A DNA stretch of 6,811 nucleotides from Nitrospinota bacterium (lineage in GTDB: Bacteria; JADFOP01): assembly GCA_022562795.1 (NCBI GenBank), contig JADFOP010000063.1, positions 1 to 6,811 on the forward strand, given 5' to 3'. A model generated the notes under the pieces. The model searched no databases. It was not told the origin of the DNA and saw nothing but the letters and a program-made list of their open reading frames with translations. Numbering within the stretch: the stretch's first letter is position 1; the number at the start of each line of letters is the position of its first letter. The position numbers and the translations under genes are program-made. Shown here piece after piece: positions 1 through 4,179 of this stretch.

Positions 1-282
1 GATGTCGCCTTCTACGGTGGTCTTGAGCTTGTCCGGTTGAGACGGGATTCCGCGCACCTCCAGTGCGCCTGCTAGGGTCCCGACCAGTCACCCGGCGACG
101 GCGGCCACGATGTGGTCGAGGGTCGAGGGCACATCTTCCTCTGGCTCTAGACCATAGAATTCCTTAATGCGGCCGTGGACGCCGTATGGGACCGCCTCTT
201 CGAAGTCCTCGATGTATGCATGGCGGAGCGGCGGCTTTAGCTGCTCGATGCGAACCTGTGTGGTGTGGATGAGTTCACTCAC
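1..282 (-). CDS. OsmC/Ohr-family protein, predicted selenoprotein (in-frame UGA = Sec65), 3' end outside window
   Basis: The frame starts at GTG 282-280, preceded by AAGGAG at 295-290 with 7 bases spacing. It reads 64 residues to a TGA at 88-90, then continues without a stop for 29 more codons to the window edge. Residues before the TGA include STLDHIVAAVAG and residues after it LVGTLAGALEVRGIP and KLKTTVEGDI. This is the central helix and following strand of OsmC-family proteins, in which the TGA position is normally cysteine (the redox-active Cys of Ohr/OsmC peroxide reductases). A SECIS-like stem-loop lies at 82-43. I infer selenocysteine insertion and a thiol/selenol peroxidase-type role in the cytoplasm. 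The start overlaps the uvrC stop by 8 bases (GTGAGTGA), so translation is probably coupled. A Cys-to-stop mutation or base error is the alternative, but the stem-loop makes it less likely. Sec machinery (selA/B/C/D) is not in this window. Confidence 0.82.
43..82 (-). promoter_or_regulatory. Putative bacterial SECIS element
   Basis: Read on the minus strand just after the TGA, CGGGA (82-78) pairs with UCCCG (47-43). Inside this, GCGCAC (68-63) pairs perfectly with GUGCGC (57-52) around the loop UGGAG (62-58). The loop starts 25 bases after the UGA and has G at its second position; if U62 and G58 wobble-pair, the loop becomes GGA. These features fit the known bacterial SECIS pattern: a hairpin inside the coding region shortly after UGA, a small apical loop with an early G, and a lower helix separated by an internal loop. 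Its role would be to bind SelB carrying Sec-tRNA and GTP. Pairing was worked out by eye; no folding energy was computed. Confidence 0.75.
88..90 (-). other. In-frame UGA codon, predicted selenocysteine (residue 65)
   Basis: The codon falls between AAVAG and LVGTLAG, where OsmC-family members carry their conserved cysteine. The frame and the family similarity both continue beyond it. Recoding as Sec is inferred from the position together with the downstream stem-loop. Confidence 0.8.
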
Positions 283-2180
283 GTTTCATCTCCTTTATGT
301 CAGGTGGGTGGATTGGCCCGACGCTGAGCGCCTTGTGGAGCGCTTCGGCCAACTTTCGTGGGATGGCGGCGCGGCGGGCGACCTCTTCTGGCGTGGCTTC
401 GCGCAGCCGCTTGAGAGACCGGAAGGCCCTGAAAATCTGCTGCTTGCGTTTGGCGCCGATGCCTGGCACCTCGTCCAAGACGCTCCGGAGTGTCTGTTTT
501 TTACCCAGGGTTGCGTGATAGGCCCGCGCGAACCTGTGGGCCTCATCGCGGATGCGCTGGAGGAGGAAGAGCGCGCCTGAGCTTCGGGAGAATAGCACCG
601 GGTTTTTCCGCTCCGGCAGGTAGACCCTTTCAGAGGCCCAGCGGGCCGAGCCCTGCGGGCGGTCCGGCTCCTTGGCCAGGGCGGCCACGGCGAGGCTCCA
701 CACAAAGGTCCCTCATGGCCGCCAGAGCGATATTGAGCTGTCCCTTGCCGCCGTCCACAAGGAGAAGGTCCGGAAGGTCCCCATCCTCCAGGCCCCGGCG
801 AAAACGACGGGCGAGAACCTCGGCCATCATGCCGTAGTCGTCGGGGCCCTCGACCGTCCGGATGCGGTACTTGCGGTAGCCCCGCTTGGCGGGCTTGCCC
901 TCGACGAAGCGCACGATGCTTCCGGCGGCCAGGGTGCCGCCTAGGGCGGAGATGTCCACGCACTCGATGGTCGAGGGCGCGCGGCTCAGCCGGAGCTTGG
1001 AGGCCAACTCTTCCCGGACATCCTCCAGGGCCTCGCTCTCGTCGTCCCGTCGTCGGAAAGCCTGCTCGGCGTTCCGGCAGGCCAGGACCACAAGCTGGCG
1101 AGCTTCGCCTCGTTTAGGCGCCCGGAGCCGCACGGGACGGCCCCTGCGCTCCGAGAGCACCGCCTCCAGGGCCTCGGCCTCAGGAACCTCGATGGGCAAG
1201 AGCACCTCCTCCGGCAAGACCTCCTCGTTTAGGTAAAAGCGCGCCAGGAAGTCGGCCAGTACCGCCTCGTCGGGCAGGTGCATCCGGCCGAAGTGGTGCG
1301 CCTCGCCGCCTACGAGATTGCCGCCTCGGACCGTGAGCCGCTGGACGGTCAGCCGCTCACCCTCGCGGTAGAGGCCCAAGAGGTCCTGGTTACGCTTGAG
1401 CGCCTGCCGGGCCACCTTCTGGCGCTCTACGGTCCGCTCGATTGCCTGGAGCCGACGCCAGATGCGGCCCGCTTCCTCGAAGCGGAGCCCGTCGCTGGCC
1501 CGCCTCATCTCGGCGGTGAGCGTGCGGATGAGCTCGTCGCTTCGGCCCTCCAGGTGGAGAATCACCTGGCGGACCAGCCCGTCGTATTCCTCACGGGTCG
1601 TATAGCCCTCCACGCAGGGACCCACGCACTGCTTGATATCGTAATAGAGGCACGGTCGGCTGCGTCCGCGAAAGACGGTGTCAGAGCAGGAGCGTATGGG
1701 GAAGATCTTGAAGAGCTCCCGAACGGTGGAGCGGGTCTCAGCGGCCGAGGCGTAGGGGCCGAAATAGCGGGCGCCGTCGGTTGGCGGCCCATGGGGCAGG
1801 CGCACCACCTCGAGCCTCGGCCAGAGGTGCGCGGTGTCGAGCTTGAGGGAGACCAGGGTCTTGTCGTCCTTGAGGTCAACGTTGAACAGCGGCCTGTGCT
1901 CCTTGATGAGAACGTCCTCCAGCAGCACCGCCTCCTTTTCCGTGTCGGTCACCAGAACGTCGATGTCTTTCAGGCGGGCCAGAAGAAATGGAATCTGGTG
2001 GCGGGCGTCGGCCCCTGCCCGGAAGTAGCTTCTGACCCGGCTTCGTAAGTCCTTGGCCTTGCCCACGTAGAGGACCTCGCCCTTCCCTCCTTTGAAGAGG
2101 TAGACGCCAGAAGAGGCGGGGAGCTCCTCGATGATTGCCTCGAGGCGTTCCGATGAGGAGGTCTTCCTTGCGGTCGTCAT
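275..2180 (-). CDS. uvrC: Excinuclease ABC subunit C (UvrC), frame interrupted near 695-715
   Basis: UvrC makes both incisions around a lesion held by UvrB. From ATG 2180 the first frame (516 residues to a stop at 630) shows a GIY-YIG nuclease domain (GVY 25-27, YVG 38-40, Glu88 in LLED). It has four cysteines at 165, 177, 185 and 189 with the C-X11-C-X7-C-X3-C spacing of the UvrC iron-sulfur site. A UVR motif that contacts UvrB lies near 219-254. The RNase H-like second nuclease begins with VDIS (Asp409) and LVDGGKGQ (Asp476). The rest is in the next frame, from about 703 to 278: AVAALAKEPD, the catalytic His in RDEAHRF (His codon 538-536), and tandem helix-hairpin-helix DNA-binding motifs including VPGIGAKR. 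The switch needs one extra or two missing bases. All domains are present, so a sequence error or very recent mutation is likelier than decay. It starts 10 bases after uvrB. The Shine-Dalgarno AAGG at 2192-2189 overlaps the uvrB stop. Confidence 0.95.
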
Positions 2181-2190
2181 GTGTCGAACC

Positions 2191-4179
2191 TTACCTGATC
2201 TGAAGCTCCATTCCCTCGAGCTCAAAGACGCGGTCTCGAAGCTCTGCGGCCCTCTCGAACTCGTAGGCCTCGGCCGCCCGTCGCATCTCCTTCTTTAGGT
2301 CGGCCACCAGCCGCGGCACCTCTTCGGGCGGCACGTCACCGAAAGGATCGTCGGCCGGCACGGTGACATAGTCGGCTTCGTAAACACTCTTGATGAGCTC
2401 GTGGATGTCTTTGACGATGGTTTCCGGCGTGATGCCGTGTTCGGCGTTGTAGGCGAGCTGCAGCTCGCGTCGGCGCCGGGTCTCATCCACGGCCCGACTC
2501 AGGCTCTTCGTCATGGTGTCGGCGTACATGATGACGGTGCCGTGGACGTTTCGGGCCGCCCGCCCGATAGTCTGAATGAGGCTCCTTGCGCTTCGCAGAA
2601 ACCCTTCCTTATCAGCGTCCAGAATTGCCACGAGGGAGACCTCGGGAAGATCGAGCCCCTCCCGAAGCAGGTTGATGCCGATCAAGACGTCGAAGACCCC
2701 GAGCCTGAGGTCGCGGATGATCTCCGTTCGGGCCAGGGTGTGGATGTCGCTGTGGAGGTAACGTACCTTCACACCGAGGTCAGCGTAGTAGTTGGTGAGC
2801 TCTTCGGCCATGCGTTTGGTAAGGGTGGTGACCAGGCTCCGCTCGCCCCTCTCCACCCGCCGGGTAATCTCCTCCAATAGGTCGTCCACTTGGCCCCGGG
2901 CGGGCTTGACAACGACCTCGGGGTCCATGAGGCCCGTGGGCCGGATAATTTGCTCCACCACCACGCCCTGGCTGGCTCTAAGCTCGTAGTCGGCAGGTGT
3001 GGCCGAGACGTAAACGACCTGGCCGACCTTAGCGCTGAACTCCTCAAAGTTGAGAGGCCGGTTATCGAGTGCCGAAGGAAGACGGAAGCCGTACTCCACG
3101 AGGGTCTCTTTGCGGGAGCGGTCGCCGTGGTACATGCCTCCTAGCTGGGGGATGGTGGCGTGGCTCTCGTCTATGATGCAGAGGAAGTCTTCGGGGAAGT
3201 AATCAAGAAGGACGTGGGGCGGCTCGCCGGGCCCTCTGCCGTCGATGTGCATCGAGTAGTTCTCGATGCCCTGGCAGTGGCCGAGCTCGCGGAGCATCTC
3301 CAGGTCGAAGCGGGTCCGCTGCTCGATCCTCTGGGCCTCGAGGAGCTTATCCTGGGCACGAAGCTCGCCCAGGCGCTCCTCCAGCTCCCGCTCAATATCG
3401 CGGCTGGCCCGGGCCAGGTTGTCCGCCGAGGTGACGTAGTGGCTGCCTGGGTAGAGGCGCACCTTCTGGCGGCGCCCCAAGGCCTCTCCCCGCAAGGGGT
3501 CGATCTCGTAGATGGCGTCCACGTAGTCGCCGAAAAACTCTACCCGCACGGCGCGGTCCTCCTCGTAGGCCGGGAAGATGTCCACAACGTCGCCCCTAAC
3601 ACGGAAGCTGCCCCGGTGGAAGTCCACGTCGTTGCGGCTGTACTGGATCTCCACGAGCCGCTCCATGAGGGCGTCGCGGCCGAGCTCGCGCTGGTCCTCG
3701 AAGAGGATGAGCATGTTGCGGTAGTCCGCCGGCGATCCTATGCCGTAGATGCACGAGACACTGGCAACGATTACGACGTCACGTCGCTCCAGGAGGCTTC
3801 GGGTCGCCGAGTGGCGCATCTTGTCGATTTGGTCGTTGATGGAGGCATCCTTCTCGATGTAGGTGTCGGTGCGGGGCACGTAGGCTTCGGGCTGGTAGTA
3901 GTCGTAGTAGGAGACGAAAAACTCGACGGCGTTGTCCGGAAAGAGCTCGCGAAACTCTGTGTAGAGCTGGGCGGCGAGGGTCTTGTTGTGGGCGATGACC
4001 AGGGTGGGGCGGCCCCACCGCTCGATGACATTGGCCATGGTGAAGGTCTTGCCGCTGCCTGTGACCCCCAGAAGCACCTGGTGGGACAGCCCCTGATTGA
4101 GGCCGTCGGCCAGCGCCTCGATCGCCTTTGGCTGGTCGCCCTTGGGGGTAAAATCGCTAACGAGCTTGAACGGTCCCAT
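2191..4179 (-). CDS. uvrB: Excinuclease ABC subunit B (UvrB), damage-verifying helicase
   Basis: UvrB takes over the lesion from UvrA, inserts its beta-hairpin between the strands and recruits UvrC. The 662-residue product has the family's usual length and start ([16 protein letters not shown]). Visible elements are the Q-motif-like GDQPKAI (15-20), Walker A GVTGSGKT (38-45), the aromatic beta-hairpin [12 protein letters not shown] (91-102), Walker B DESH (337-340), and motif [10 protein letters not shown] (536-543). A C-terminal UVR domain (about 622-657, with [15 protein letters not shown]) pairs with the matching motif in UvrC. The frame stays open upstream to 4647, but that stretch only mirrors the carboxypeptidase gene on the other strand. 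ATG 4179 matches the family start. No Shine-Dalgarno precedes it, and a promoter sits 7 bases away, so the message may be leaderless. It is the first gene of a uvrB-uvrC-osmC unit. I saw no LexA-type operator. Confidence 0.98.

Follow-up and report, generated by a model that had tools for sequence, protein, structure and literature searches.

The Ohr/OsmC enzymes carry a catalytic Arg-Glu pair around the peroxidatic Cys. Solved hydroperoxide reductases of this group (PDB 1ukk, 1nye and 1n2f) and their NCBIfam models (TIGR03562, TIGR03561) are the closest described Cys-containing relatives of the gene reported here.

A member of the fold family with selenocysteine (Sec) has also been described. 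The OsmC-like selenoprotein of the Sargasso Sea and GOS metagenomes has a UxxT motif (PMC1088965, PMC2398784). Published inventories give one OsmC-like selenoprotein, UxxT (PMC1088965, PMC2398784, PMC9312934, PMC13188914), and the 2026 inventory, with 119 families and subfamilies, holds a single OsmC entry, again UxxT (PMC13188914). In the genomes that we searched, members of NCBIfam NF041052 (OsmC_like_Se) read GFULLT, which is UxxT, and from this motif match the published family is apparently NF041052.

Like the UxxT family, the gene in the present window, which we call osmC-Sec, belongs to the PF02566 fold family, has a predicted Sec at the position of the peroxidatic Cys and is followed by a putative bacterial SECIS. 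It differs in the sequence around Sec, which is GFU-L-L-T in the UxxT family and [AG]-[GA]-U-[LM]-x-G in the clade of the window gene (core motif U-[LM]-x-G, hereafter UxxG). Members of both kinds occur side by side in four genomes (G033, G050, G139 and G276). Membership of NF041052 was rejected: the window-family protein scored 13 bits against a 95-bit cut-off, had no UxxT and fell in a separate group of the tree. The original prediction, which had been made from the DNA alone, pointed to OsmC-like selenoproteins from marine metagenomes; that published family exists, but it is apparently another clade than that of the window gene.

With the OsmC/Ohr reductases, the osmC-Sec protein shares the fold and the positions of the two redox residues. 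The sequence similarity to 1ukk is weak (E = 2.6e-7), and the structural Z-scores for 1ukk, 1nye and 1n2f were 11-12. The osmC-Sec protein differs from these enzymes in having a predicted Sec for the peroxidatic Cys, in its score against TIGR03562 (28.9 versus a cut-off of 85.8 bits) and in that the Arg-Glu pair is not evident.

Layout of the window

The window, that is, the whole stretch of DNA analysed (6811 bp), is the entire contig C63 of a draft genome with 84 contigs, 2.15 Mb in total and 97% complete. The C-terminus of osmC-Sec is therefore absent from it. The features around the gene are as follows.

1..282, minus strand: osmC-Sec gene, 5' part; 94 codons with a GTG start at 282..280; the 3' end lies past the contig, and the complete orthologue is L003 6004-6468
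88..90, minus strand: in-frame TGA, predicted Sec codon, U65 in L003 numbering; an invariant Cys column in OsmC homologues, TGT in five close homologues
52..68, minus strand: predicted bacterial SECIS hairpin GCGCAC-UGGAG-GUGCGC, from folding, family scan, a peak of synonymous-codon conservation and a consensus fold
275..2225, minus strand: uvrC, immediately upstream of osmC-Sec; a deletion of 2 nt, judged against L003, breaks it here
275..282, minus strand: 8-nt overlap of the uvrC stop (TGA 277..275) and the osmC-Sec start; the sister genome is without the overlap

The minus-strand frame from 282, its start and its formal stop at the TGA (90..88) were all as originally predicted, and the conventional ORF is 64 aa long, the fragment that standard gene callers had been expected to report. 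The interval 1-282 given for an OsmC selenoprotein does hold the gene, but covers only its first 94 residues. AAGGAG precedes the GTG start, and past the TGA no further stop occurs before the contig end, the translation reading LVGTLAGALEVRGIPSQPDKLKTTVEGDI.

Among named relatives the closest is 'Nitrospinae bacterium AH_259_B05_G02_I21', of the same genus, whose locus L003 has a complete osmC-Sec gene of 154 aa with the same TGA, a second Cys at 133 and a TAA end. The window and L003 proteins are 93% identical over the shared part. Against Pfam OsmC (PF02566, cut-off 27.5) the complete L003 protein scored 48.2 bits and the truncated window protein 16.1 bits.

The other genes in the window are uvrB (minus strand) and those for a D-Ala-D-Ala carboxypeptidase and an endonuclease III-like HhH-GPD protein, with a short unassigned ORF. 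The window uvrC is split at about 705-720 on the minus strand by the 2-nt deletion, the L003 uvrC being intact; the cause is an error of assembly or else a true frameshift. An Rfam scan of the window gave zero matches. No plasmid or viral contig matched osmC-Sec, and carriage by phages or plasmids is unsupported.

A second piece of osmC-Sec lies on contig C51 of the source genome (L004, 2192-2362). It is about 96% identical to window positions 1-145 and keeps the TGA, with G changed to A in the SECIS loop. We rejected it as a paralogue: since both of its ends are cut off and the loop G is altered, it looks like a fragment. This repeat may be the reason why the window contig ends within osmC-Sec.

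The TGA stands at a Cys column and is followed by selected protein sequence

Before the TGA, comparison of the window with L003 gave dN of 0.042 and dS of 0.81. Over the 29 codons after the TGA, dN was 0.00 and dS 0.36, with synonymous differences only, which is direct evidence of protein-level selection on the downstream part. The continuation of OsmC sequence past the TGA, as first proposed, is thereby borne out, and the complete L003 protein scores above the Pfam cut-off.

The TGA had been said to replace the redox Cys of the family, and it does fall on the column of the invariant OsmC Cys. In a family-profile search around G310, five genomes had TGT (Cys) at this column in full-length matches of 163-170 bits. 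In the alignment, the Sec column and C133 were the two columns invariant across Sec and Cys homologues. By hand count the clade has about 106 TGA loci, a number that includes some partial matches as well as one locus bearing an additional TAG; the Sec column itself was inspected in about 65. The ratio of about 106 Sec to five Cys loci is not an unbiased frequency, because sampling was confined to relatives of three chosen centres.

A predicted SECIS hairpin follows the TGA in the Sec forms

In the published model, a bacterial SECIS has a loop of 3-9 nt whose first two positions hold a G, lies 16-37 nt from the UGA and has a minimum free energy of -7.5 kcal/mol or lower (PMC13188914). The window hairpin agrees with all four of these constraints (PMC13188914): it has the loop UGGAG, the apical loop is 25 nt past the TGA, and the energy is -9.7 kcal/mol alone and -11.3 kcal/mol with flanks. 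Hairpins that fit the model were present in 63/63 Sec-form sequences (62 distinct loci; -8.0 to -13.7 kcal/mol) and in none of the five Cys forms, whose best hairpins had -0.5 to -5.0 kcal/mol.

For single sequences the p-values of the hairpin were mostly 0.01 to 0.26, most being only modestly better than synonymous recodings. Across the family, pairwise synonymous-codon identity was near background along the gene save at a few sites, chiefly U+8, +9, +11 and +12, where the excess was 0.35-0.62. These positions are the two arms of the SECIS stem. For the six-codon window U+7 to U+12, which was picked after inspection of the hairpin, 0 of 20,000 permutations reached the observed conservation. 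Covariation was weak, with a single compensatory pair, at which this genus has A-U for G-C.

The position of the hairpin differs by branch within the one protein family: in the first 48 nt past the TGA it lies 17-20 nt from the UGA in some branches and 25-26 nt in others. In G086 and its kin it is closer, at 17 nt, its stem being GCUAGC and its loop, for example, CGGGGC; other sequences have it at 18-20 nt. The differing positions suggest replacement or sliding of the SECIS.

The pairs of TGA and Cys loci, the SECIS, the purifying selection past the TGA and the tRNA-Sec and Sec-type SelD of the genome (see below) all support the selenoprotein reading of the original prediction. From these sequence data, we put the probability that the window TGA encodes Sec, and that the gene is that of an OsmC/Ohr-fold selenoprotein, at about 0.93. 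The UGA would be decoded as Sec by SelB with a Sec-tRNA of anticodon UCA, and the SECIS hairpin, which begins about 20 nt past the UGA, would direct the insertion.

Predicted structure and function

The AlphaFold model had a pLDDT of 91 and placed residue 65 in a long helix, 55-76. Its best PDB matches were all OsmC/Ohr proteins, with Z-scores from 13.2 to 9.8, against 7 to 8 for unrelated rows. U65 and C133 aligned with the invariant Cys pair of OsmC, C133 being read from L003, outside the window. On the selenoprotein reading, Sec would stand on the central helix where OsmC enzymes have the peroxidatic Cys, and C133 would be the resolving residue, with which the oxidised Sec could form a selenyl-sulfide. 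The invariance of U65 and C133 is consistent with such a selenyl-sulfide cycle.

The likely chemistry would be thiol-dependent reduction of organic hydroperoxides or of a related electrophile, and we lean towards peroxidase activity (a thiol or selenol peroxidase) for the osmC-Sec protein. We are less sure of hydroperoxide reduction than of Sec, as no Arg-Glu pair stands out from the alignment: no clear counterpart of the Ohr pair was found among the osmC-Sec proteins, in which D56 is invariant at U-9. It is possible, if rather unlikely, that this OsmC-fold selenoprotein acts on some other electrophile or redox partner in place of hydroperoxides, an alternative that touches the function only. 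The nearly invariant polar residues (H36, Y43, D56, R77, R124 and H129) include no obvious counterpart of the Ohr Arg-Glu pair, and no common neighbour ties osmC-Sec to peroxide sensing. However, both redox positions are invariant and the fold matches the solved Ohr/OsmC enzymes, both of which favour the peroxidase.

Selenocysteine machinery in the source and other genomes

The source genome has a tRNA-Sec with the anticodon TCA (C37:1708-1797, 77.6 bits) and a SelD of Sec type, LSHGGGUACK, cut by the contig end (C27:1-672, locus L086). This SelD is itself a predicted selenoprotein (GGGUACK). Neither SelA nor SelB was found in the draft assembly (97% complete), and the Sec machinery named as a check on the original prediction is thus present in part: tRNA-Sec and selD were found, but selA and selB were not. 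In the sister genome G002, of the same genus, SelA, SelB and tRNA-Sec were all found, with selA and selB adjacent (C277:5976-9259). The flank of this locus is present in contig C34 of the source genome, where the sequence diverges just ahead of the selA start, the region beside the locus being rearranged rather than simply cut off. The selA-selB pair of the source genome is therefore elsewhere, unassembled or lost.

In 14 other genomes with osmC-Sec, SelB was found in 13, SelA in 12 and tRNA-Sec in 11. No SelA, SelB or tRNA-Sec was detected in G192, which is 98% complete and has osmC-Sec and a Sec-type selD.

These data bear on whether the window copy is a recent relic, in which case the family would be a real selenoprotein family but the source genome would have lost SelA and SelB and would make only the 64-residue fragment. 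The failure to find either protein in the source assembly, the rearrangement of the sister's selA-selB neighbourhood and the truncated piece with an altered SECIS loop on C51 would all fit such a loss. We nevertheless regard it as very unlikely, since the genome retains both tRNA-Sec and a selD of Sec type, purifying selection on the window gene is strong downstream of the TGA, and, with selA and selB adjacent in G002, a single assembly gap could account for both absences.

That the TGA arose from a Cys codon, by nonsense mutation in a pseudogene or through a sequencing error, is extremely improbable. The 2-nt deletion in uvrC does point to at least one damaged gene in the assembly or strain, but the same TGA recurs in L003, on the C51 fragment and at more than 100 loci of other genomes, and the codon conservation is specific to the SECIS; for the family, conservation of the TGA in independent genomes refutes a mutation or read error. 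Genome-wide reassignment of UGA, for example to Trp, would likewise give an in-frame TGA within a conserved gene, but its probability is negligible, given that TGA terminates other genes of the window (uvrC and the D-Ala-D-Ala carboxypeptidase gene), the homologue column is Cys and not Trp, and a tRNA-Sec with a UCA anticodon is present.

Neighbourhood of uvrC

The original prediction had attached interest to a coupling with uvrB and uvrC. The 8-nt overlap of uvrC and osmC-Sec in the window is replaced by a gap of about 116 nt in L003, and adjacency to uvrC is specific to this genus, the two genes not being adjacent elsewhere. As the adjacency is limited to the genus and the overlap is absent even from the sister genome, the arrangement carries no functional weight; a functional coupling with uvrC was ruled out by the lack of any shared gene neighbour of osmC-Sec in eleven other contexts.

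The UxxG clade

Judging from the published inventories (PMC1088965, PMC2398784, PMC9312934, PMC13188914), the UxxG clade adds to a known fold family a new subfamily that is apparently unlisted and has Sec as the rule. The annotation models that we examined do not cover it either. The family had been taken to be rare, which does not hold for the window gene's own clade, widespread with its roughly 106 TGA loci. All 40 Sec-form genes tallied had Gly at U+3.

In the tree, the UxxG proteins formed one group (91/96; 92% of bootstrap trees), and Cys families lay between this group and the separate UxxT clade (100/99); the program flagged long branches in this tree. The five Cys forms were one clade (100/100) nested within Sec members (enclosing nine, 93/95; next nineteen, 100/100). 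With the Cys clade inside the Sec members, the change was most likely from Sec to Cys, and Sec is probably the ancestral state of the UxxG clade. We consider it likely that this OsmC clade is undescribed, that Sec is ancestral in it and has been kept across dozens of bacterial families, and that Cys arose once, late and with loss of the SECIS.

Bacterial selenoproteins have mostly been discovered through Cys homologues that outnumber the Sec ones. If the above holds, Sec-ancestral families would be of the sort that searches for Cys/TGA pairs tend to miss. With about 106 Sec loci to five Cys loci in the searched genomes, standard gene calling tends to give truncated ORFs of about 64 aa. In the genus-level group g280 (family f230), natural Sec and Cys members would permit a direct comparison of what Sec contributes to OsmC chemistry.

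A divergent UxxG branch was seen at L147 (G420), L148 (G440) and L150 (G406), with the sequence AGUMYGTLRG and also with a TGA. Several genomes of the same family as this branch have two loci each, one of each kind by score. Three further OsmC-like frames, G276:C151:12839-13231, G099:C152:1500-1895 and G063:C87:461616-461987, each have one in-frame TGA and score 39-50 bits against NF041052, below its cut-off; they are possibly further Sec subfamilies.
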